Origin: Hericium rajendrae
Lineage: Eukaryota > Basidiomycota > Agaricomycetes > Russulales > Hericiaceae
DNA length: 64,000 nucleotides
Direction: 5' to 3'
Assembly (NCBI GenBank): GCA_033439255.1
Contig: CM065892.1
Span: 248,001 to 312,000 of the forward strand
Within the stretch, counting starts at the first letter, position 1. Each line of letters opens with the position of its first letter. Position numbers and translations under genes: made by a program. Positions 2,411 through 63,584 of this stretch are shown piece by piece. The notes beneath the pieces are model-generated. The model saw only the letters and a program-made list of their open reading frames with translations, was not told the DNA's origin and ran no database searches.

Positions 2411-5400
2411 ATGCCGCGGCCTCATCTGACGATCACACCTACCCAACCACCCCCTTCGCGAGCTGATTCCCGTGGTCCTCCTTCCAGCCTATCGTCAGCA
2501 AGACCACTGTCGAGCGCGTCGTACAGGCCTCCCTCCAGTGCGTCCTTTAGACCTCCGTCAAGCGCCTCCCTTCGACCGCCGTCGAGCGCTTCCACGCGCC
2601 CATTATCGAGCCTTTCCACCTACAGGCCGCCCTCGAGCGCATCAGTGCGGTCAGCGTCTCGCGCCTCTCAGCGGCCGGGTTCACGCGCGTCCTTGCGCCC
2701 TCCAACAAGACAGTCTGCCCGTCACCAGCCCGCCATCCAGGCCCTCGTGGGGAAGCTGACTGGTCTGGATGCCGAGGAGCATGAAGATGCGTTCCGAGCT
2801 GCCGTCGACTCCGTTGCTCGAAGCATAGACAGCATCACGAAGACAGCCCCGAGCTCGAATATGGGCGACATGGATAAGCAGGTTCACGGGTATCTTGGTT
2901 TCTCTTCACCTTTGGGATGTAAGCTGATTGGTGTAGTCGTGTTCGAAAGGCGCGTATAGTTTCCCAGGATCCGTGGGCGAACGCCCTTGGCACGGCATAT
3001 GCAAATTTGAAAGAGCACATGCAGCAGAGTAATGATCTGGATATGGAGATCAATGTAGGTCGTTGTCCGAGGCGCAACGCATCCATGCTCATATTGAGCA
3101 TACAGTCGTCACGTCTTGCTGACCATCTGCAGCTCCTGGTACCGATATGTCTTGGATGAAAGCATCATTCGCTGATGCATAAATAGATGCTACTATCCCG
3201 GCCTCCAGATGAAGGAACGCTGCAATATGCCGAAAATTACCTCGAAAACATCCGGAATCCCCCTCCCAAGCCACCAGGGCTGACCTGGAAAGACATTCTG
3301 GACGAAGAGCCTTTCGAAGGCGACCACTGGGAGGGCGTCTATGGCCTTCCTCCAGGCAGCACTGTAGAAGGTTGGGAGACAAAAAGCCTGGAGAGCACGC
3401 CTCCACTCTCACCCCTGGATTCGGGCACCCACAGCGATGTAGACCTTTCATCTCTAGACTCCGCAGAACCGATCGAGCCGGTTGCGACCCACAAGACGGA
3501 GACCCCCTTATATCGTGACGAGCCGTACGCGCATCGTCGTGAAGTAGAAGAACTGCAAGCCAGGCAATATTGGAGAGTCGACTGGCATCCAGACGTTCCT
3601 CCCCCAGAAGAATTTGACATCGGCGATGCATCTTCTTTCGGTGCGATCTCTTCTAGAGGCTGTGACCGTTATCATACATAGATCATGTTGACACCATGTA
3701 GGTCCTTCAATCACTCGCGTATTGGAAGGGACAAGTCTCTTGGGGATCTACAGTAGCCATCATCAGGTGCGCAGATGATTAATTCGCACTGCACGTTACT
3801 CAACCTTGTTAACAAAGAAAAAGTACATTTATGAACATGATATGGTCCGCGAAGTTCTCATAGCGCTGCAAGGAAGGCATAACCTTGTCCTTCGCTGGAC
3901 GCACCGCGACAGCACTGCATTTTTCTTCGAGGTACTTGTAACAGTCGGTTCAGTGGTCATGAGGCTGACGATAGAAAAGCCATACAAAGACGCTCCGCAA
4001 TTGGCGCACCTATCGCCAGCATCACAAGGGTCCATTCTTCAATCGTTTGCGCGGACAGCTACCGTAGTCGAGCACCTGCGGAAGTTCACTGCGAGCATCC
4101 TGACCAAAGCCACGCGGGTCATTGACCCATCTATCCGACGTCCACGCCTCTCCAGCCATGCAAACACCGCGACGCTGAGTCTGCAAGCTTTCTCCGATGC
4201 AGTCGCGTCTCGGCTCCGGGACTTCGACAGATGGTGCGCCGCGCAGGAAGAAGCGATCGGTCTGGCGCGCGCAGGCGTCGGTCCGCCCACCGTCGTCAGC
4301 CTCCTCAGCCTCGAGAAGCACCTCCGCGACACTTTCTCGCGCAGCTTCGAGGTGCTCCTGGACGTCACACGGCAGGCGATGCGGCGCGCGGCGCGCTCGC
4401 ACGACGTGGACGCCGAGATATGGATGCTAGCGGAGCTGCCGGTGCGCATGGCGCCGTCGGCCGCGAGCACGCTGCTGTTGGATGCGCTGCTCGCGGCCGT
4501 GCAGGACCACCTTGCAACGGGCGACGCGACGACGTCTGATGCGCTCATGCATGCGTTCGTCGAGGCGGCGGAGCCGACGTGGTGCTTGATTCGGCGCTGG
4601 CTACAGGACGGGATGCCCATTCTCAATCAGTTGGAGAGGCAGAGGAGGGCGCCGCTCGGCGTCATTGATGACGAGTTCTTTGTCGAGGACAATGAGCTGA
4701 CTATCCTGGATCCGGACTTCTGGACGGACGGCTACGCGCTGCGGGACGGGTCCGACGAGATCAACGGATCGAAGTGCGTGCCGATGTTCCTCGGACATAT
4801 CGCACCATTTATTCTTGGCGCCGGCAAGAGCATCGGTCTGCTGCGTGCCCTGGGGATCACCATTGCAGTCGAGGACGAAGCGGATTCGCCGGCCCACTGT
4901 CTCACTTTCTCCAGCCTGGTGACGGAGCTGTCCTCCGATGGCTGCAGCCGCATATTCTCCGTGGACGATCTCTCCCGCCTGGTATATGACAGTCTGTTGC
5001 CCCGCTGCCAGATCGTGCAGAGTCAGCTAGCGCAGGTTGTCATCGAGGACTGCCAGCTGTGGACGCACCTCGCGGCCATCGAAGACGTGTACCTGATGCG
5101 GCGAGGCGACATCATGTCGCGCTTCTGCGATACGATTTTCGCGAAGGTGCGTTGGCCATGTGTTGTTGAAAAAATGGCCATTCACGACCGGACAGGCGGA
5201 CAGCGGCCAGAGCTGGGGCGACTTTCATTTTCTCAATGGCGTCTTCCGTGACATCACGACGTCGGGTCCGGACGCGTGTGTCGACCCCGCCCTCGTCCGC
5301 TTATCGTACCGCGGCGGGCGGGACGCGCTGGCTAATCAGAGCGTGCGAGCATTCGGGGGGCTCTCTGTCGAGTACGCGGCGCCTTTCCCGTTGACGTACG

Positions 5401-6711: not shown

Positions 6712-9700
6712 TCACGCGCCCCACGCAATCGGCGCCGCGAAGGGCCCCGCATGCATCGAGCTCATCCCAATCGACTGCGTGATCTGCTTCCTCTTGTCCT
6801 CCCAGCCCTTCAACGCGCGCAGCAGCTGCACGATCTTGTCCCGCTTTCCAAGCCGCACGTCGTTGATGCTCACGCTCCCCATCTTCACGTCGTTGTCCAA
6901 CAAGAAGTCAAACAGGCGGAACAGCCCGTCCAACTTGTCATCATTTGGCCCCGATGGGAACGCAGAGTCCGGCACGGGCGGCGAGCACGGGCGGCCCTTG
7001 ATCGACTCCGCGATGCGCAGAAGCTCGAGCCCGCCGCAGATGCAGCCCGCATCGCGAATCTGCAGCTGCTTCGGCAGATGGGCATTGGCCCAATCGATGA
7101 GGCTTGGTTCGACGGCGATCTGCTTTTGGAGGGCGATCATATGCAAAGAAGAAGAGAAGCAACGGGTATTTAGATACGCGGGTATAGAAGCATTTGAGTG
7201 AAGCCTACATCAGACTGCGCGGTCCCCATTCTTCTCATCTCTCGCGAGGGCCGGATGGGCACGGGGCCTCTGGGTGTCTTCGGCGACGGCCCAGGACTCG
7301 TCTTTGCGCCCTCGGCGCTCGACACCGTGTCATTGGTGAAGAACGAGTCTACTCGCGGACGCTCGCCCTCTTTCACATTCGCCGGACTGTGTCCGGGCAG
7401 GTTCATCATCAAAATCTGCGCGTCGCGCGTCGAGAGCTGGCTGGTGTTTTCACGCCGCATGGCCTTCTGCGCCGCCGCACGAGCTGTGGGCGACGGCGGC
7501 CGTGGAGCCGGGTTCATCGCTTGTGCAACCATTAGCGGAATGGTGGGAACGTTCACGGACGACACGACAGGTTCTGAGGAAGGAGTTCAGTGCATACTCC
7601 ACAAGATACCCATGGAATGCTCACTGGTGTAGTCCCTGTCAATAGACGCCTTCATGAGAGCCTTCATCCACTCCCGTATGACAATCTGCTCATCCGAGCT
7701 GAACGAGTGCGACTTGTCGTGCTCGTGAACGATCTTGAACCCGTAGCGACCAGGATCGACCTTCTCGTCGGTGACTATCCTGTATCCAGTGGTGTTAACA
7801 TAACCCTTAATCTTGACCTCCTGCAAAATTTCTCAGCACCATTGACACCCATGAACCTGAAAGAAGCCGCTCACGCTCGTGCTATTGCTGCGTAACCAAT
7901 AGAGATGCGGCCCTTTGAGCACGAAGTACCGGTTCTTCCACGTATTATACCGGTCGCCCTTCTTCCGCATCCAGCCATTGTGATCTGGCGTGCCAATCTG
8001 CTGCAGGATGCTCTGGCCGCTCTTCAGCCCGCCGATGCCTGCAATGATCTTGGGCGAGGGCTCCGCCGTAGACGAAGTACGCTTGCGCAGAACCGCCGGG
8101 TCTCTGATGGACCCGTTACCTTTCGAGTCCTTCGAGTCCTTCGAGTCGCGCCGCTCGTTGTGCTGCTTCGTATGAACAAACGAAGAACCATCGGAGGTGG
8201 AAGGACGACGAGACTTCCGGGGTCCTCCGAGATTCAAACGCGCAAACGTCGACGGGCTCTTGTCCGTCGGGATGTCCGCATTGTCGACAAAACTGTAGAG
8301 CAAAGGAAATTGGTGTAGATTCTAAGAAAGGCGCGAAGAGACCATACGCAGAATACCTGGGAGGTGGCTTGCGCGATTTGCCCAGTGTGCCGCTGAAGCC
8401 GCCGAAGATGCTCAGACGGTCCGAGCCCTTGGTGGCGTCAAGGCTGCGCTTGCGGCTGTTGTTCCGGACGGGAGAGCTGGCCTCCCCAGGGGAGAGCGTA
8501 GATCCCTCCTTGGACGTGCGACTGGAGGACTCCTCCTTCTCCTTGCTCTTGGATGCATTTGAGCCCGAACGGCCGAAGACATTCTTGCGCTTGGGCTTGC
8601 TCTCAGAGTGTTTCGCGGTCTCGCTCTGTACCATAATGAGCAGACATTTGGGTACATAAATGCAACACTGTACCTCGCTAAGTGCGGCTCGATCGTCGCC
8701 TTCCTCGGAAATTGGGGTGCCAAACGCTTTCACGCTCGTCGCCAACGCTCCATCACTCGGAGACAACGTCAGATGGGGAGGCCGGACGTCCTACCAAAAA
8801 CATCAGTTTCATGAAATCCGGATCAAGTTACCCATTTGCGTACCAAATGCTTTCCACCCGCAGAGCTAGTGAGTAAACCAGCCGGAATCCCGAGCCCCAG
8901 CCCGATCGTCGCATCGCTCTCGTCTCCCTTATTCGACCTCGGCCGCAACCCCGGATCCGAGTCTCTCCGCGCACGGATCTGCTCCGGCACGGGTGTGGCT
9001 TGGACGTCGTCAATCTGCGGCGGGCTCTCGGGGCTGATTACAGACGCGAAACCCGGCCCATTCGAGCCCGGCGTCGTCGCGGATGCGGGCTGGGTCTGAT
9101 ACGGGCTGTTGTTGAGCGAGCTCGCGGCTATCGAGTACGAGACCGACTGCGACTGCGAATGCGAGCGCAGCGGCTGGTGCTCGGATGAGACGACGGATGG
9201 CGGGCGGCGCAGCTCCGTAATTGCGTTCGCGATGCGCATGCGCTTCCCGAACGCGAGGATGCCGAGCTCCGTCTTGAGCAGATTGACGTCGAGCTCGAGA
9301 AGGACGTCACCAGCAATCTCTTGCTCTGTGTGAGAGTAAGAGACAAAGAGCTACAAGGGATACCACAGGCGTGCTCACCTATGAACTTCTCGCAAACGCC
9401 CTCATCGAAACCCCGCGATCTGAGCCACTCTGCAACCTCCTCCACACTCCAATCCGTAGGATGCGAAGACGGCGGCCGAGACGGAGACATCTGGCGTTGA
9501 GCAATGCCAGTCTGGTTCACAACCGCTTGCAGCGATGAACGTGCACTTCCTACGGCCTGGCTGGGACCCGCCGAGGACGCAGCAGGCGACGGAAGTAGGC
9601 CTGCGGCATCTTGGATGCTACCAATGGACACAGGTGCGATGGGTACTACAGTTCCTCCGTTAGATGCAGGCTTTGGCTTTTCGATCGGTGTCTGCATGGA

Positions 9701-11244
9701 AGACGGTCGAGAATTGCGCGTTGGCTCGGGGGTGGGCGACATACGCGAAGACTGCCGCTGCGTGCCTGGCGTGACGGGACTTGGAAGTGAAGCGGACGAG
9801 GGCCGTTCGGACGCGACTTCGGTATCGATATTCGGGAATGTAGCCTGCGTCGCCGTGGGCAAGGCGGTGTCGTCTCTAAGAGCAGGAGAGGGAACGATGA
9901 AATCTTCTCTGGGGTCAACGGCGGACCCGGAGCCAAAAGACGTGCGGCTCCTTGCTGCTGCGATCTGAGTTGCATCAGAGGGCGCGCGAAGCATCTTCAT
10001 GTCTTCCTCATCCTCCTCTGGAATGTACGATGGCCGACGCTGGCGCTGGGCGGGAGTAGGCGACCCAGGCGGCTCCTCCTCATCCTCTCCTTCGCTCTCG
10101 TCACTGACTTCAACGTCGATCGGCGGCACGACCGACCGCATTACTGGTTCGTTCTCCGCCGCCTCGCGTTCCTCGGCCACGCGCTTTGCCCGCTCCGCCA
10201 GCTTCTGGCGTGCATTTCTGTAGAAGTCTTCCGCATCCGCATCGGCGTCCGTGTCCGTCCCGGTGTCGTGGTCTGTGGAATCGCCTCCGCGCGTGCTGGA
10301 GAAGGAGAAACTGCGCGCGCCGTCATCCGTCGTGCGCCCGAGCTGCTCGATCGCTTTCTGGACGTCCGTCATCGTCGCACGCATGACCTCGCCATCGCCG
10401 TTCGCACGAGGCGCGTCACCGCCGACGGTGTCCTTGGACGTGCTTGTGCTTGGTGCCTGTGCTGGCACTGGTTCTGGCTCCTCGACCAGTGGCTGAAGGG
10501 AAGTCGGCGATTTGGGACTCGTGGGCTGTTTGGTAGAACTGTCTGCCGGTATAAGAACCACTGGCGATGATGGACCAGTCTCGGCAGCGGGCGCGGGGGC
10601 TGCAGCTTGCGTGTAGCTCTTTGGAAATAGTCCGACTTTGCCGGCGAGGTTGCGACCCTTCACAAAGAACGCAGACATGTTAGCTGACCATTCTCGCAGA
10701 CGACGAAACCGATGCATGAGATGAAAGCTTTAAGCAGGGAATGACATCTGCCAGGAATGCAGGTAGACAGCCCAATGGTGACCGACAGAAAGATATGACT
10801 GGAACCACAATTCCGTTATGCATGGAACAGTGTGCACGAGGATGATGCATGGGTGAATACGTCCAGGGCAACTGCTATTTTAGCATAGCCTTATGCACCA
10901 TGGTACGATTGACGGCATTTACGTCCAGAAAAGGATAAGGCCTGCGACATCGGTGAAGGCGACCGACGAACGACAATCGCCAGCGTATATTGGCTCCCGC
11001 ACAAAACCAGGATGGATGGGGGCGGCACACGCAGGAGAAAGAAGGCGGGTGTGCACCGCCGCGAACCCTACCCACGGACGCGGGCGAACCTAGAAAACCC
11101 GACAATAAGACGACTCACTTGCCACCACCCATCACCATACAGATCGTCCCTTTCTACAACCTCGATCCGGTCTCCGGCCTTGAACGAGACCTCGTCGTCG
11201 TGCTCGGGCACGAAATCATGCAATGCGTAGACGTAGTCGACCAT
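6712..11244 (-). CDS. BOI1: Boi1/Boi2-like polarity scaffold: SH3-SAM-PH with CH-like C-terminus
   Basis: Homologue of yeast Boi1/Boi2 and fission yeast Pob1, which link Cdc42/formin polarity signalling to exocytosis at the plasma membrane. ATG at 11244 (MVDYVYALHDFVPEHDDEV) starts the SH3 domain, which continues DRIEVVERDDLYGDGWWQ and, after an unusually long intron of about 460 bp (11118 to 10658), GRNLAGKVGLFPKSY. A long disordered acidic and Ser/Pro-rich region follows, then a SAM domain (DWSVEEVAEWLRSRGFDEGV, then VLLELDVNLLKTELGILAFG), a basic Ser-rich linker, and a PH domain (GWMRKKGDRYNTWKNRYFVL, then IKGYVNTTGYRIV and EQIVIREWMKALMKAS). The last exon encodes LIDWANAHLP through LLRALKGWEDKRKQ, which resembles a calponin-homology domain. 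Stop at 6712. The start could lie further upstream: an acceptor-like TTTAG sits at about 11273, just before GHQPARNGAMVDYV. Confidence 0.88.
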
Positions 11245-11510
11245 TGCACCGTTTCTGGCGGGCTGGTGGCCCTAAATGATACAATGAAAAGCTACAAAAT
11301 GAGGGGTATCAGTGAAACGCAAAGTTAAGGATAGCAGGGGTGTTGAGATGGGGGAGATGGAAGAGAGAGTAGAGTTGCAAAGGAAGATGATGTTATGATG
11401 TGGGAACGCCCCTGTCGTCGCCCTCCGCCGCTCCCGGCCCGCCTTCCGCAGTGACTTCGTGAACGCGACTTCGTCAAACGCGTAGTACCAGTGCACCGTC
11501 ACCTCCTGCA
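11245..11510. promoter_or_regulatory. Short shared promoter region, Boi-like / LARP7-like
   Basis: Only 266 bp separate the two start codons. The segment next to the LARP7 start is GC-rich and is open on the minus strand for about 79 codons (reading VHWYYAFDEVAFTKSLRKAG) but has no ATG there. That frame could be an upstream exon of the Boi-like gene or chance. Confidence 0.4.
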
Positions 11511-13119
11511 ATGTCCTTCGCTTTCGTGCCTCGCTCGGTCAAAAAAGCAGGTAAGGCATCGCAAGGCACAACTGCAGAACCAACCAGAATATCTGCACCA
11601 ATCACGGCAATTGAAACCACCCATCCAACGGAAAGCAAGGGTAAGACAAGTCATACCGGCTCCAGCTCCCGCGCAGAGGATGCAGCCATCCTAGTCGCTC
11701 TTGCACTGTCGGAACATGCGCTGTGGACTAATCCCAGCTTGCGAGATCCAAACCGAGACGGATGTAAGTCCTCATTTCGCGTCTGCTCGGAGCGGAATTG
11801 ATGAATCCCGCAAGTCATCTCCCTCAGTCACCTCATACATTCAACACCGTATCTCAGAGCAGCCACCCTTCCCAGCGAGATTCTGATCATGAAGGCGCTC
11901 AAGACGCTCTTCGGAGACACGTTTGAAACGCGTATGATTGTGGTCAGCACGGCACGCTCCAGCCGCCATGTATCGGACAGCGATTTCGGTGGCTACGAAG
12001 TCAGGAGGAAGGACTGGAAGGCCGTCGTCGAACGGTTCTCCGAGTTCAATCGTGCGTACTGGCAAGCGCGTATGATATACATTGTGCTTCGTTTCTATCC
12101 TTTAATTAGTCCAACATCATTGACCACCATTCATCGCACAGGAAAACATCCCCCATTCATCTCGCACTGTCGCGGGCATAGTCCGTTTGGTGACGCGACT
12201 TCTTCCCGATGACGCGTCCTTCGACCGTATACAAAATGCGGTTTTGCCACCACACTATCAAGATTTGCTGCACGCCCTTCCAAAATGTAAAGGATTCGCG
12301 CTCGTCACGCTGTCCCGTCTCGAAGACGTCGAGGTACTCCTCCACGACTGGCCCTGGCACCGCGACCCAGACATTGCATACGACGAGTCTGACGTGGCAC
12401 AGTCCGGTTTCCGGACTCTGTCCAAGCCGCACTGGGATCAGCTGCAAGACGAGTATAATGCGTACCGCGCCCGGCTCCACGAGACGGTGGCGTCCGCGGT
12501 TCCGCCACAGAGACCTATAGCGCGACCGGCGCCCTTGACTTCGCACCCCCAACAAAAACGTCCTCCTGAAACCCACGCTCCTCAAGCTCAGGAAGACTCG
12601 CACGCCCTTACCGCCAACTCGCCCTTCCCCCCAAACTGCGTGATCTACGTCCGCAACGTTCACCCCTCAACGAACAAAACGACCCTCCGCGCGCTCTTCG
12701 CTTCTGCATTCGGACCCGACACCGACCTCACCGCCGCCGGCATCGACTACGTCGACTTTACCAAAGGCCTCGACACCGTGCGTCTCCTCTCCTCGCCTCC
12801 CCTACATCCCGCACTGACCGCACGTGCTTAGTGCCACCTGCGCTTCGCGACGCCCGCGCATGCCGCGCACCTCCTCGCGCACTTCACCGCACACCCGCAG
12901 GTGCACGCGCAGCCGCTTGACACGAGCGGCTCGGCAGAGGGCGGGAAGCCGATGGTGCTCGAGGTGCTGCAGGGCCGGAAGGAGGAAGCGTACTGGGAGT
13001 ACATACCGGAGAAGGTGCGCGCGCAGGCGGTGCAGAAGGCGCTGGCGGGCGGGAATGCAGGGGCTGTAGACGAGGACAGGGACGGTGCGCGGCAGCGGAA
13101 GCGGCGGCGGCAAAAGTAG
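11511..13119 (+). CDS. LARP7: LARP7/Pof8-type La-related RNA-binding protein
   Basis: Candidate La-related protein 7. In this family (human LARP7, ciliate p65, fission yeast Pof8) the La module and a C-terminal xRRM bind the 3' region of 7SK or telomerase RNA. ATG 11511 (MSFAFVPRSVKKAGK). A La-motif-like block spans LALSEHALWTNPSLRDPNRD, an intron with donor at 11764, then GFISLSHLIHSTPYLRAATL and EILIMKALKTLFG. A middle region (LLPDDASFDRIQNAVLPPHY) is followed by a Pro-rich linker, then an xRRM: NCVIYVRNVHPS, IDYVDFTKGLDT, intron, CHLRFATPAHAAHLLAHF, then VLEVLQGRKEEAYWEYIPEK. The Y-V-D triplet (RNP3-like), CHxRF and the E-x-x-Y-W helix start match the human LARP7 xRRM order closely. It ends in a basic RKRRRQK tail. 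The join near 12060-12145 does not stay in frame with the obvious GT-AG pair. Around 410-430 codons. Confidence 0.8.
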
Positions 13120-13374: not shown

Positions 13375-15623
13375 TCACGGCCCGATGTTGGCCTCGCGCC
13401 GCAGCCGGTCGCGCACGCGCATGAGCGCCTTCCCGAGCTCGTTACGGCCCGTCCCGCCCGGGCCCTCGCCCCAGAACACGTCGTTCACCTCCGCGTAGAT
13501 CAGCTCCGCGAGGCCCGTGCTTAGCAGCAGCTGCCGCAGGTCGCTATGCTGGCGGAACTTGTGGTGCAGCACCTCGTCCATCTGCCGTCACCCCTACCCA
13601 TCAGCCAAGCCCCTCCTTAAGAAAGAAGAGACTCACCATCTGAAGTGCGATCCCGTGCCAGTCCTCGCGGCAGTAGTCCGCGTGCCGCTGGCTGACCGCG
13701 TACACGTCCTCCGGGCGCTCGCACTGGCGGATGCGTGCGGCGATGTCCGGGTGGTACTCGAGGAACTTGAGCGCCTCGAACAGGTGCAGCGCCGTCGGGT
13801 ACAGCTCGTCCTGGTACAGCACGCGGTGCCGCGAGTGGTGCAGGAAGCCCGCGTACTCGCCGTACCCGCTGAAGCGCAGCGGGCCGCCGCCGGGGACGGA
13901 CGGCGAGGGCATCGGCATACCGCCCGGAACGGCGGGCATGCTGCCGGCGTGCGCGTACGGCGTGGGCATGTTGGATGGGCCTGGGGAGGGCATGCCCAGG
14001 CCGACGCCTGGCGTCGGCATGCGGTATCCGCCGCCGCCGCCGCCGGGCGTAGGCATTGGGCCGCCCATGTTCGGCGTGGGTATGGGCATGGAATGGCCGC
14101 CGCCCATGTTCGGTGTCGGCATGTGCATGGAATGGCCGCCGCTCATGTTCGGTGTCGGCATGGACATGCCATGACCGCCACCTATGTTCGGCGAGGGCAT
14201 GGGCATCGTACCACCGCCCATGCCGCCCACGTTCGGCATACCCCCGCCACGCATGTTCGGCGACGGCATGGACATCATTCCGCCACCGCCGCCACCGATG
14301 TTGGGAGAAGGCATGGGCATCATTCCCCCGCCCCCGCCGCCACCGATGTTGGGGGAAGGCATGGGCATCATTCCCCCGCCCCCGCCGCCCATGTTCGGAG
14401 AAGGCATGGGCATCATTCCCCCGCCCCCGCTGCCCATGTTCGGAGAAGGCATAGGCATGCCCCCACCTCCCTGCATAGGCGATGGCATACGCATCGGCAT
14501 GCCCGGTCCAGGCGTCGCGCCCGCACCTGGGACAGGCCTTGGAGTCGGCATGCGCATCGCCGAGGGCGCAGGCGTCGGGCCCCGCGGCGGATGGCCGTAC
14601 GCGCTGGGTGGGTTGATATCGGGGTTATCAGGCGGATGCGACGAGGGATCGGCGAGCTCGGGTTCTGGCATCTGCATGTTGCCCCCGCCGAACGGGCGCG
14701 CGAGGGCCTGCGCGAGGCTCGAGAGCCCGTGGCGGCCGTCGCGCCGGCGGAGGTTGCGGAAGAACCCGTCGCGTCTGGGTTCCTGCCGTTCGGGTTCTGG
14801 GAAGTCGGGAGGGGGATAGTGATGTCTGCGGGGCTCGGCAGGGCGATAGTAGTCTTCGCGCCTGTCCGTGCGCCTGCTTGTGCGCCCGTTGCGCAATTCG
14901 GGGAGGATGGAGCGATAGGGCGTGCTCGCGAGGATGTCCTTTGGAGGTTCGGGAAGGGGGTTGCGTCTTCTGTGAGAGAGATTGTAGGAATCGTAGTGTC
15001 GTGAGCGGTAGTCTCGCCGTCGTGGTTCATAGTCAGTCGAGGATGACGGACTGTCGAGGTCATCACGGATCTCGGAGTCGGAGTCAGAGTCGATAGAGCT
15101 CGGGGTAGGCGAGCGACGGCGGTGTCTTCGGTGTCGGGTCGACCGGTGACGGCGCGTGCGCTCGCGAGGTCTATGGCGACTCCGGTGCGAACCGCGATGG
15201 TCGAAGTCCGGGATGCGTCCGCGCGGAGGTGCGGGATAGGGAATAGGCATCTGCATCGCCGGTGCCGCCATCTGTGAAGCTGCAGCTAGCATCGCTGCAG
15301 CAGCATTTGCTGGCGCGGGGGCCAGTGTCTGAGCAGGGGCTGCTGCCTGAACATATGGAGGATCTGCACAGTTGACGTCTCATTTAGTGGCATCCAATCA
15401 ATCCGAGATGGAACGTACAATTTCCCCCAGGATACTGCCATAGAGTCGGCGCAGCATTCCAGTACTCTCTCAGCGCCTGCTCACGCGGCTTTTTTGGTTT
15501 GAACGGTCCCCAACCCCAGCCCTTCGAAGGGTAGTACGGATCATATGAAGCCTGAGGGTACTGAGCATAGCTTGGCTGGGCGTTACTGTAGTGTGGACCG
15601 TATCTGGACGAGGAGTTGCCCAT
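13375..15623 (-). CDS. NADAR-domain protein with N-myristoylation-like start and MPSPN repeats
   Basis: NADAR domains (YbiA-like, DUF1768) act on NAD/ADP-ribose-type N-glycosidic bonds; known members hydrolyse riboflavin intermediates or remove ADP-ribose from guanine. ATG 15623 gives MGNSSSRYGP, matching the N-myristoylation consensus (Gly2, Ser6). A Tyr/Pro-rich segment follows; the intron (donor near 15410) joins in frame to NYPPYVQAAAP. Then come a strongly basic Arg/His-rich and Ser/Asp region, a long Met-Pro-Ser-Gly repeat tract, and the C-terminal NADAR domain: FSGYGEYAGFLHHSRHRVLY, YPTALHLFEALKFLEYHPDI, YCREDWHGIALQM, intron (near 13636-13582), MDEVLHHKFRQHSDLRQLLL, AEVNDVFWGEGPGGTGRNEL, ALMRVRDRLRREANIGP, stop 13375. 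About 715 residues. Where bacterial YbiA proteins usually read T-S-E-H-Y this has T-A-L-H-L, so a normally acidic residue is missing. Host partner and substrate are unknown. Confidence 0.85.
13990..14500 (-). repeat. Tandem repeat encoding PMPSPNMGGGGGGMM-type units
   Basis: About ten to thirteen imperfect copies of a 30-60 bp unit inside the NADAR gene. Each encodes a variant of MPMPSPN(M/I)GGGGGGMM; towards the 3' side the units become MPTPNMGGGHSM. The copies nearest 14280-14450 are almost identical at the DNA level, which suggests recent expansion or homogenisation. Confidence 0.85.
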
Positions 15624-34474: not shown

Positions 34475-37400
34475 ATGTCGCAGCCCAGGAACAATCTCGA
34501 CTTGCTGCAGCGACGGGCGGATAGTCGTCCGCCGGGTTCGGCGTCGCGTCCAGCTGCAGGCTCACAGTCCGAGAAGGTGCGCAATTTGCTATTATCCCGT
34601 GGTGCTTTGAGCTATATCTGTGCTGTAGTCCTTCAAATTCAAGCCAGCCAAAGCGGCGGCAACGGCATCGACTTCTTCAGGTATGCCTTCGACTTCGGCG
34701 TCTAGTCCTTCTGGACGCTGATGACCGCATAGCAAGTAGCAAACCCGCTCCGTTCGTGACGCCCCAGTATGCAAAGACCAAGCCTCTCCCACTGAAATCC
34801 GTGCCCACACCTGTACCTGCGCGGGCCATCGAGGCATGTATCGAAGTCGCGTCCTCCGACTCAACGCCCTCGAGCCCTTCTTTCGGCAACGCAATGAAAC
34901 GCGGCTCGCCCGACACGGCATTCGTTCCGCTGGCTCCCGCTGCGAGCAAGCGCCAGAAGCTGCAGGACGAGCCGGAGAAAGAGAACCGCTTTCGGTCGGA
35001 CGCGAAGGGCAAGGGCAGGGAGATGCCCATTTTTGACGCCGGTGGTGGCCATGGGGTTGCAAAGCCACGCTACGTGACGCCGGTGCCTTCGTCCAAGTTG
35101 GCTATAGCGGAAGTGCCTAGCTCAACTCAGACAAATCGTACACTTGCGCCTTTTGCATCTGCCCCCGGCAGGGACCATAGCGATCTGCAATTTGTGAGTC
35201 GTAGATCTTGGCTATCTTGCAATGTTTTTTGTTGATGTTTTCGTCTAGAAATCGGTTGCTGAGCTTCGAACATTGTATGCTTATAACGATGACGAGTGTG
35301 CAGAGGCTAGAAAGCGCCAACGAAACCATACCCTCGGAATAGATACGGGAAAAGATTTGTTCACACTTCGAGAATATATGTATGCATTTTCGTTTCTTCC
35401 CTCATCGCACTCTTTCTTACCTTGCAACTAGTCGACTTCTGGATGATCGCAACGAGGCTATCGGGGCGGAGCTCGCAGCACGCGAAAATCCCGGACTGTC
35501 ACCCAGAAAGCAGAATGTGTTCGCTGCCGAATCTTCAGGAGCAGCCACCCATTCATCCTCGAATTGGGAAGATTGCCATTCATCGTATCGAGCTTCGACA
35601 CCGCCAACTGATGACAGTTTCTTTGCCGACCATTATAATAGCGCGGCTGCGCCCAAGCACACATCCAATCCGCCTGCGACAAACAACCGAGGAGACCGTG
35701 TTGCGTCTGAAGACACCTCCAAAACGCGATATGAGCCAGTGCCACCAGATGATGCAGAGTTATGGGATCGATTCTCGGAGCCAGGCATCGTCGTGCCAGA
35801 CGACGACGGCGACTTTTCGTCTGGAGTCGCATTTGTCGAGAGTCCTCCGGATGTCGAAATCGAAGAGGTCACCTCCCATGCGGTTGCTTCCACTTCTCGT
35901 ATTCCACCGACCGCACCTGCCTTGCCTCCTCCGGCTCCGATCGACGTGCCCAAATATGACGGGGCACTCGAAAAAAGCCCTTATTACTCGGAGGTGAAGC
36001 AGAAACTATCAGCGACATTTGGTCTGCAAGAGTTCCGCAAGAATCAACTGGACGCCGTCATCGGTACTCTGTCTGGTCGCGACGTGCTAGTGCTGATGCC
36101 CACGGGCGGCGGCAAGAGTCTGTGCTACCAGCTCCCTGCCCTCTGCACGAGCGGCAGGACGCACGGCGTCTCGTTCATCGTCTCTCCACTGATTGCGCTG
36201 ATGGAAGATCAGGTGCAGCAGCTGCGCAGCAAAGATGTCGACGCGGACCTCTTCACGAGCGAGCGCGATTTCAGCGACCGATCGAAGTTGCGCAATCGCC
36301 TGTTCAGCGCGGGTGACAAACCAAGTATAGTGTATATCACTCCAGAGAGGCTGAGCGGGAGCCAGGAGATGGGTCGCATTTTGGATTACCTTTACCAAAG
36401 GGGCGAGATTGCGAGGTTCGTGATCGACGAAGCGCATCTCATCTCATCGTGGGGTCGCGACTTCCGCGATTCGGTGGGCATTACAGCGTTGTTTCCATGG
36501 TCAGTCTGATTTACCTTCTTCCCATGAATAGTACATCGCCCTCCGCACCCTGCGCGAGAAGTTCTCCAATGTCCCCATCATGGCGCTCACGGCGACAGCA
36601 ACCGAAGAGGAGCGGCGCGACATCGTCACGGGCCTCGGCATGCGCGACCACCTCTTCCTCACGCAGTCATTCAACCGCGCGAACCTCAGGTATACCGTTG
36701 TGAAGAAGCCGCAGCGCACGGTCGACTACATCTCTCGCTTCATCCAGGAGCACCACCCGGGCGCGACGGGCATCGTGTACTGCGGTGGGCGCGACAAGTG
36801 CGAGACGGTCGCTCGGCAGCTGCGGGATCTGGGCGTGGAGGCGAAGCATTTTCACGCGGAGATGTCGCCGACGGACAAGGCTAAGGCGATGAGTACGTGG
36901 AAGGAGGGCAGCTGCAAAGTGATTGTTGCGACGGTAGGTGGGATTTCGTTACGCGTGATCTGGAGCTCACCGAGGTACTGCAGATTGCGTTTGGCATGGG
37001 CATTGACAAGCCCGATGGTAAATGAAATGCGCTTCTGCTGTTCAACTCGCTCATTGTTTGCAGTTCGGTTTGTTATCCACCATGACATGCCTTCGTCTCT
37101 TGCTGGGTGAGTCATGTCTTCTTCCAATGATGCCATTGTGTATATCTCTTCGCAGATATAATCAAGAAACTGGTCGCGCGGGTCGTGATGGGAAGCCCTC
37201 TGATTGTCTCCTCCGTAAGTGCACATATGATAGCAATATTGAACCATCTCACGCTCCCATCGATACAAGTTTATTCCTTCAAAGACTTCGGCTGGCAGCG
37301 CGACCGCATAATGAAGGACGACACCCTCTCGCACGAGAACCGCGCCCGACTCAACCGCGCGCTCGAGGCGATGGACCACTTCAGCACGAACACGACCGAC

Positions 37401-60748: not shown

Positions 60749-60843
60749 AGCAGCTCCCGATTTCAAAATCTGGGATCTATAGGTGATGGTGGATTGGTGA
60801 GCAGCTGCAGCCGGGAGCCTACAGCACTTGTTCTCAAGCAGCG

Positions 60844-63584
60844 ATGATCAACAGCGACAGTGTGCAAAGATCGCTCCTTACTGGCAAGTGGGATAGTGCG
60901 GAACACGGGCTCGTGGATCTCGGAAAGGCGGTCACCGAGGGTCGATTCCGGGATGTTCTTACCTCGCATCACGCCCGCGCTCTCTTCAGCATTTCCGATG
61001 CCTCGCGATTGCAGGAAGAGCCTCTGGACAAGTGGTTCGCGTTTCAAGATCCTGCGGTAAAAGAGGCAGCCGATCTCGAGCTGGTGCGTCTGCTGGTCGC
61101 CGTAGCTTGCCTAAATGCCTTCGTGCAGGCCAATTGGACGGGCCCCGATCTCGATATCAAGTCTCTGGACATGCTCATGGTACCAGAGGAGGCTTCGTCC
61201 ATCGTTACGGAAGACCTCCTGCATACCAAGGCGGTTGGAGAGCTCACGTATGGTGGAGAACCAGCGTATCACCTCGCCCAAGCCATCCCGTTATTCCGCT
61301 TCGCGCGTATCCTCCTTGACCTCCCATTCCAGCATCTGATCACCATTGACTGGTGGCGATTGCGCGCATGGAACATATATCAACAGATCCTTGACGAAGC
61401 CGTCCCAATACCCCCCGAATCCCTCGCACCGTTAGAGGATCTTGCCGAGAAACTCGATGATCCGGACCTCGTGGGGCAGCTCTGGCTTGAACGCGGATTG
61501 CAGGATCATTACCAAGGAAATGACAAGGCTGCCCTTGGATACTTCGTGCGTGCCGCGAGGACCACTCAGCTTCAATATGAGCTTACCGGTGCTCTGGGTC
61601 GACGAACGAAGTTCCAGCAAACCGATCTCAGTCAGCTGGTATTGCTGGCGCAGAGTCGGCAGCGAAAGGACAGTCCAGCAGATAAGTCCGAAGAAAGCGC
61701 TCAGCTCAATGTTACGGTGCCTTCAAAAGCCCCCGACAACCTCGCGCTGAACGACGATACGCTACTGGAGCAAACAGAGTTCACATCGTCCAATCCCGCA
61801 GCACCCGGCTCTAGCCTCAGTCACCTCAACCCGTCCGCCCAGCCGGCCCTCCATCCCCTCGACCAGTCCATCCTCCTGTCTCTCTGCCTCAACGTACGCA
61901 ATACCTCGCCCTACCACGGCCTCACCAATGAACAAATGTCGCCGTACGTCGCGCGTGTCATCTCGCACCCTCAGAACTGGACTGTGCACACGATGGCGCT
62001 CCTCCTCCGCTCGCGTCTCGAGGCGCACCGCACGCGTACCGTCGAGCGCTCGACTCTGCAGCTGCAGGCGCTCGTCGACCAGATGCCTGCGGCCGACTCG
62101 AGCGTGCCCGAGCGCCTGTGCTTCGTGCACTCGCTCCCGCTGCCCAGCAAGTGGGAGATGGAGCGTGATCTCGCGCTGCGCTTCCTCTCGATCGGCGTCG
62201 TCAAGTCCGCGCTCGCAATCTTCGAGCGCCTCGAGATGTGGGAGGAAGCCGTCAAGTGCTGGCAGGCGACGGAGCAGACGGAGACGGCGCGCGAGGTAGT
62301 GCATGACCTCCTGGAGGGCCGGAAGGCCGAGGCGGAGACGGTGCTCGCGCGGGGGAAGGCCGTCGCGGAGCAGCGCCGCACGGCGCTTGCAGTGTCGCGC
62401 GAGGCGAAGCTGTGGTGTCTTCTCGGCGAGCTGGAGCCCGAGAAGGCGCTGGAGCACTACCACCGCGCGTGGGATGCGTCCGGTGGAACGTCCGGGCGCG
62501 CCATGCGCTCCTTGGGGGGATTCCATTTCGCGCGGGGCCAGTTCGCGGAGGCCATCGTGTGTTTGCGGAAGGCAGTGGCGATCAATCCACTGCTGTCGCG
62601 CTCATGGTTCATCCTTGGGTGTGCGTGTGTGCGAGAGGAGGATTGGGATGGTGCTCGAGAGGCGTTCGGGCGCTGCGTGGCGATCGATGACGAGGACGGT
62701 GAGAGCTGGAACAACCTGGCGAGTGTCTATCTCCGCATGGATGACACAAAAAAGAAAACGATCGAAGGATCAGATTCCCAAGACGTGAGTCTGCCTTTAT
62801 CGATCCTGCGTATTCGCATTCCATTCTGATGTCTGTTCATCAGCCGGACGCGGATACCGCGGATGACAGGGCTGCGCACAACATTCCATTCGAGCACAAG
62901 ATGTTCGCCTTCCGCGCCCTGAAGCAGGGCCTCAAGTTCAGCTACGACAATTGGCGCATGTGGGCGAATTACATGATCGTCGCCATGGACGTCGGCGAGC
63001 TCGCCGAGGCCGCGCGCGCCATCGGGCGCGTCGTCGAGGAGTGCGCGGCGAAGGCCGGCGCTGCGTGCGTCGACGAGGACGTCCTGGACCGCCTGGTCAA
63101 TGCTGTGACCCGGGCGCCGTCAAATCCGGACGAGGCTGTGGAGGGCTCGGGCACTGCTGCTAGTGCAGTGCAGAATCCAAATGAAGGCCATGGGCTCGCC
63201 AGGCGGGTGGAAGACCTGTTCGACCGGGTTATCCTTCCCCGCGTATCCTCGACGAGGATCTTCCGTGCGCAGGCAAGACTGCTGACATGGCAGTCGCGCT
63301 GGGAGGAGGCATTGCAGGCGTATCTGGAGGGCTACCGGCTGAGCGCCGCGGGGAAGATCGGTAAGGGCGAGACTGACGTCGAGAAGTGGCGAGAGGGTGT
63401 GCGGGACGTCGAGGAGATTGTGGATGTGCTGGTCAACTTTGGGCCGAGGGTTGAGGGATTCAAATGGAAGCTGCAGGCCAGGAGTATCATCCGGACGTTC
63501 ATGGGTCGGACCAAAGACTTTGAAGACGAGCCGGAATGGGCGCGCTTGGTGGATCTACAGGAAGAGGTGAAAAAGGCAGATTGA
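60844..63584 (+). CDS. EMW1: TTC27/Emw1-like TPR protein
   Basis: Homologue of human TTC27 and yeast Emw1, an essential TPR protein linked to cell-wall integrity and assembly of large complexes. ATG 60844 (MINSDSVQRSLLTGKWDSAE). The N-terminal helical region reads LVRLLVAVACLNAFVQANWT, FARILLDLPFQHLITIDWWR and IPLFRFARI. A conserved block follows: LGYFVRAARTTQLQYELTGA, then LGRRTKFQQTDLSQLVLLAQ. Then comes the C-terminal TPR stack: LSIGVVKSALAIFERLEMWE, EKALEHYHRAWDASGGTSGR, HFARGQFAEAIVCLRKAVAI, LSRSWFILGCACVREEDWDG, DDEDGESWNNLASVYLRMDD. The single intron (about 62786-62842) lies after SDSQD and joins to PDADTADDRAAHNIPFEHKM. Exon 2 gives FRALKQGLKFSYDNWRMWAN, ending LVDLQEEVKKAD, stop 63584. 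About 890 residues. One of the least intron-rich genes here. Confidence 0.9.

Follow-up and report, generated by a model that had tools for sequence, protein, structure and literature searches.

Pof8 (Lar7) is a LARP7-family protein that helps telomerase assembly in the fission yeast Schizosaccharomyces pombe. A telomerase role is also found in the p65 protein of Tetrahymena, and human LARP7 is part of the 7SK RNP. The LARP7/Pof8 family is already known in fungi from a survey of 472 species, in which Pof8 is reported to occur without Bin3 in only four (PMC8917221); the string “basidio” appears 0 times in its text, and the species list is in the supplements. The xRRM domains of these proteins are described as having neither RNP1 nor RNP2 (PMC10083321). 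Telomerase RNAs of basidiomycetes have been described from Ustilaginales (PMC10035886) and from Malassezia (PMC12506658). Our literature search found no paper on Pof8 in Basidiomycota or on telomerase RNA in Agaricomycetes, and the combination of LARP7 with basidiomycete retrieved one paper, which has LARP7 in its reference list only.

The window analyzed here is a stretch of 64,000 nucleotides from contig CM065892.1 of Hericium rajendrae, and all gene coordinates below are positions in it unless another contig is named. A Pof8/LARP7-like gene occupies positions 11511 to 13119 of the forward strand, with an ATG exactly at 11511 and a stop codon ending exactly at 13119. Its four exons, separated by GT..AG introns, join into an open frame of 481 amino acids, and the sequence blocks quoted in the initial annotation were all found within this single gene model. 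Exon 1 (11511 to 11763) encodes the N-terminal tail (MSFAFVPRSVKK...) and the beginning of the diverged La-motif region, whereas exon 2 (11815 to 12083) encodes the remainder of that region and strand 1 of RRM1 (RNP2-like MIYI), domain labels that were assigned by eye and with a weak profile only. Exon 3 (12142 to 12777) covers RRM1, including the RNP1-like KGFALVTL at residues 224 to 231, a linker, and the first half of the xRRM; exon 4 (12832 to 13119) covers the second half of the xRRM with its YWEYI helix-3 block, a basic C-terminal tail, and the stop codon. The acceptor of intron 1 (11764 to 11814; 51 bases, GTAAGT..AAG) was picked so that the reading frame runs on into DGFISLSHLI. For intron 2 (12084 to 12141; 58 bases, GTGCTT..CAG), the weak GTGCTT donor was taken, since it preserves the frame and brings MIYI and ENIP together in an RNP2-like strand. 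Intron 3 (12778 to 12831; 54 bases, GTGCGT..TAG) is in phase 0 and falls between T386 and C387.

The downstream convergent gene (13375-15379, reverse strand) carries a NADAR domain that is apparently split by an intron, scoring 69.3 bits in 13375-13587 and 20.9 bits, below the cut-off, in 13604-15379; the same gene has a long stretch of MPSPN repeats that is rich in Gly, Pro, and Met, with the NADAR domain behind it. Upstream, a divergent piece on the reverse strand (9128-11271) contains an SH3 domain (11071-11271, 41.9 bits). The adjoining long frame, 9131-10729, matched nothing in Pfam at E<=0.01, and both a SAM-like stretch in it and its joining with the SH3 piece as one gene were recognized by eye only. 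Elsewhere in the window, long open frames on the forward strand match the gamma-tubulin complex N-terminal domain (3779-5251), a DEAD helicase (35343-36509), and TPR repeats (60787-62829).

The assignment of the protein to the LARP7/Pof8 family, made in the initial annotation from the letters alone, is upheld by the xRRM domain (residues 335-449; 12622 to 13020 on the forward strand, split by intron 3). The spliced protein matches the Pfam xRRM model PF19977 over positions 1-120 of 120, with 134.6 bits against a cut-off of 23.7 bits and an E value of 2.6e-39; RRM_3 is also above its cut-off (26 versus 22.9 bits). In the unspliced genome, both halves of the domain score above the PF19977 cut-off, with 65.9 bits for a match that extends 30 bases into intron 3 and 57 bits for one that begins at the last codon of that intron, TAG, so the evidence for the xRRM is independent of the splice model. 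A genome search with the PF19977 profile, in which counts are lower bounds, found no second xRRM gene, and an NCBIfam search of the protein gave no match.

Among solved structures, the xRRM query retrieved two Pof8 chains as the top matches (6tzn, E of 2.3e-10; 6u7v, E of 2.9e-10), followed by LARP7 (5knw, E of 0.0038; 6d12, E of 0.004). With the whole protein as the query, Pof8 was again first (E of 1.6e-9); below it, an unrelated PCP-C didomain, matched in the linker region (E of 0.003), outranked LARP7 (E of 0.11). As judged by these searches, the closest relative of the protein among solved structures is Pof8 and not the LARP7 of the 7SK complex. At E<=10, the protein matched no chain of p65, although the order of La-like domain, RRM1, and xRRM would be expected to be shared with p65.

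The residues that contact RNA in the known xRRMs are conserved. The RNP3 motif Y-x-D in strand 2 and the Arg in strand 3 are present as Y377 (at 12748), D379, and R390 (at 12841), which in the structure-search alignment are paired with YID..R in Pof8 and with YVD..R in LARP7; the domain also includes F336 (at 12625) and W441 (at 12994). Y377 and R390 correspond to Y330 and R343 of Pof8, at a distance of 13 residues in both proteins, and the equivalence of D379 with Pof8 D332 was deduced from the residue numbering in PMC5805695. According to the same source, Y330 and R343 of Pof8 were mutated as highly conserved residues whose contacts with RNA are crucial in p65 and LARP7. In the xRRM query, YWEYI of the helix-3 block pairs with YWRML in Pof8, and its Trp would be the equivalent of W533 of LARP7 (PMC10083321). 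A single-sequence structure prediction of the xRRM, whose input included 18 residues from intron 3, showed no helix 3 packed on the sheet, but with a mean pLDDT of 40.5 it was unusable and speaks neither for nor against the xRRM fold.

These results bear on whether the protein could be an ordinary RRM protein, e.g., a splicing factor related to U1A/U2B''. Strand 1 of its xRRM reads VIYVRN (with Y343), which by eye is RNP2-like and near the canonical RNP2; Pfam RRM_1 gives a partial match below the cut-off (E of 0.063); and U2B'' and U1A appear in the structure search, at chance level (E of 0.16 and 0.3, respectively). However, the xRRM model is matched at all 120 positions, RNP1 is absent by eye from strand 3 (TCHLRFAT), and the Y-x-D and Arg residues are conserved. 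The initial annotation had named two outcomes that would count against the family assignment, and one of them, a splicing factor as the best match, did not occur, Pof8 being the best match. We regard an ordinary RRM protein as very improbable, a reading that is already contradicted by the xRRM profile and the structure searches.

The match to LARP7 raises the alternative of a human-type LARP7, with a 7SK-like RNA as its partner and a role in the control of transcription elongation. The two proteins share the xRRM core YVD...CH.RF.TP, and the LARP7 chains 5knw and 6d12 are retrieved at the E values given above; Pof8, however, is a far better match. An ordinary La query finds the La motif of LARP7 with ease (4wkr, E of 6.2e-8), which is not the case for that of the H. 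rajendrae protein. No HEXIM match was found in the genome and no 7SK above the cut-off (best hit 13.5 bits, E of 5), in searches that had no positive control and hence carry little weight. In addition, 7SK is reported from animals only (PMC10484740). A human-type LARP7 thus seems highly unlikely here, and alternative RNA partners to be weighed include U6 snRNA besides a 7SK-like RNA.

In the N-terminal half, no Pfam match at E<=10 was found for the La-motif region (residues 51-163) or the RRM1 region (residues 166-288). A PDB search with residues 51-288 returned no chain of a La module, only unrelated chains, and the La (PF05383) matches of the genome do not include this gene; ordinary La-motif genes are present separately on contigs C2 and C9. 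A putative RRM1 is suggested, by eye, by the RNP2-like MIYIEN at residue 171 and the RNP1-like KGFALVTL at residue 224. A home-built La profile, made of six La motifs (two from the same genome and four from PDB alignments), scored the protein at 5.5 bits; of 2,000 shuffles made, 1,673 were reported, and 6 of these attained that score. With hhalign, this profile gave a probability of 6.5% over 14 columns only. The pieces matched by the profile are NRDGFISLSHLIH and then a wing ending in YEVRRK, in the right order, and the N-terminal aromatic part of the La motif is unmatched. A single-sequence prediction of the La-motif region, whose input included 17 residues from intron 1, was unusable (mean pLDDT of 40.7). 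A MAFFT alignment that included two La-motif proteins encoded elsewhere in the genome was discarded, as two alignment modes disagreed.

The N-terminal La-motif-like block of the initial annotation is only weakly supported, by two pieces in the expected order with a score of 5.5 bits, and found no match in the Pfam and PDB searches. The order of the matched pieces is suggestive, though no proof, of a La motif in this protein. In fungal Pof8, the La motif is described as poorly conserved, chiefly in its N-terminal half, with the uridylate-binding residues lost (PMC5805695 and PMC10484740), and a barely detectable La motif is consistent with this divergence.

Compared with S. pombe Pof8, then, the H. 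rajendrae protein is alike in having an xRRM that is homologous along its length, with an identical Y-to-R spacing and a YW block in helix 3, and in its weak or diverged La motif, and the genome also holds genes for Bin3 and TERT. It differs in that 32 residues, including a basic tail (9 K/R), come after the xRRM match, whereas the helix-3 truncation of Pof8 spans only residues 390-402 (PMC5805695), which suggests a shorter end in Pof8. Another difference is that the RNP2-like VIYVRN is retained in strand 1.

The partner genes were sought in the whole genome (46.8 Mb, 19 contigs). The RNA-binding domain of TERT (PF12009) has two exon matches on contig C5, at 2368298 (63.1 bits) and 2368583 (31.7 bits), and a Bin3/MePCE homolog is encoded on contig C6 (293441-293590; 75.9 bits, one exon, model positions 7-56 of 109). 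The presence of TERT and Bin3/MePCE in the same genome is the setting expected for Pof8, and the Bin3 homolog agrees with the link between Pof8 and Bin3 in the survey of 472 fungal species (PMC8917221).

No telomerase RNA was identified in a search with RF02462 (Telomerase_Asco), in the neighborhood of the Emi1 homolog, or among 84 template-like loci. The RF02462 search of the genome, run without a positive control, gave no match. The Emi1 homolog (PF11326, contig C14) was chosen because in Ustilago the telomerase RNA is located downstream of its counterpart; no 9-base template occurs in the 1.5 kb to each side of the homolog, and a single 8-base partial one (CTAACCCT) lies upstream on the opposite strand. 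The template-like TAACCCTAA has 125 matches in the genome, versus 235 for the reversed control, and no telomeric TTAGGG arrays occur among the 100 of these 125 matches that were listed (contigs C1-C11); the assembly may be without chromosome ends, or the repeat may be a different one. The 84 loci examined (80 plus 4 shorter cuts) represent 87 of the 125 matches, and every one of the 13 sites of the longer CTAACCCTAAC is among them. Many of them recur with identical flanks and are repeat-like by eye. A near-identical TTTCAGGKTTTCTAACCCTAACCCTRATAAAAG is found in three copies, on contigs C4, C6, and C9 (loci L047, L065, and L088), and resembles a dispersed repeat that carries a short interstitial telomere-like motif. 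An Rfam search of 40 of the 84 loci detected no telomerase family. A loose rule, combining a P6.1-like hairpin with an Sm-like site no more than 500 bases downstream, selected 5 of the 84 loci when applied to the template strand and 6 of the 84 when applied to the opposite one as a control; since the two strands score alike, the rule carries no signal.

The reading that we favor, and consider fairly probable, is that the gene is a fungal ortholog of fission yeast Pof8 (Lar7), an RNA chaperone of the LARP7 family that would act in telomerase assembly. It is supported by the full-length PF19977 match, the Pof8 chains as top structures, the Y/R spacing, and the single xRRM gene found, as well as by the presence of TERT and Bin3 and by a La motif that is weak, as in fungal Pof8. 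Counted against it are the lack of a telomerase RNA in the searches above, a La motif and an RRM1 that are not significantly detectable, the retained RNP2-like VIYVRN, and the PCP-C didomain that ranks above LARP7 in the whole-protein search.

A Pof8/LARP7 ortholog could instead serve mainly U6 snRNA, positioning it and snoRNAs for 2'-O-methylation together with Bin3 and Lsm2-8, with telomerase being assembled without it. In fission yeast, Pof8, Bmc1, and Thc1 are jointly needed for U6 binding, and mammalian LARP7 promotes 2'-O-methylation of U6 (both from PMC10484740); the Bin3 partner gene in the genome and the failure to find a telomerase RNA partner among the loci searched also fit such a role. 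Against this, both functions coexist in fission yeast, so that a role with U6 need not exclude one with telomerase, and the closest relative among solved structures is a telomerase subunit. We consider a mainly U6-directed protein unlikely, though by no means negligible.

Returning to the Pof8 ortholog, a telomerase role is the leading interpretation and not a result, and the initial annotation was right to mark telomerase RNA binding as inferred. For the mechanism as a whole, including the bound RNA and the loading of Lsm2-8, we infer the following course. The xRRM would clamp a structured part of the telomerase RNA by means of Y377, D379, R390, and the C-terminal helix 3. RRM1 and the N terminus would help to load Lsm2-8 onto the 3' end of the RNA, the diverged La motif itself presumably no longer gripping UUU-OH. 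The Bin3/MePCE partner would then join, and TERT would assemble afterwards. The same complex probably also aids 2'-O-methylation of U6 snRNA, as it does in fission yeast.

The gene is a good ortholog candidate. It is what the published fungal survey would predict, so that it is of interest more as a handle than as a surprise. A tagged copy of the protein could serve as a bait for fishing out the telomerase RNA of the host, which sequence searches did not reveal. It is possible, if on present evidence somewhat doubtful, that in this basidiomycete from outside Ustilaginomycotina, a Pof8-type chaperone with Bin3, having lost the grip of its La motif, builds telomerase on an RNA that, for this lineage, is undescribed in the literature searched. 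If that RNA is cut from the 3' region of an mRNA, as reported for Ustilago, the Pof8/Bin3/Lsm2-8 route would be older than the spliceosomal processing of 3' ends in Ascomycota, and this assembly would act on an RNA with an entirely different mode of production. The protein would also bear on the question of whether telomerase assembly by LARP7 and Bin3 is an ancestral trait in fungi.
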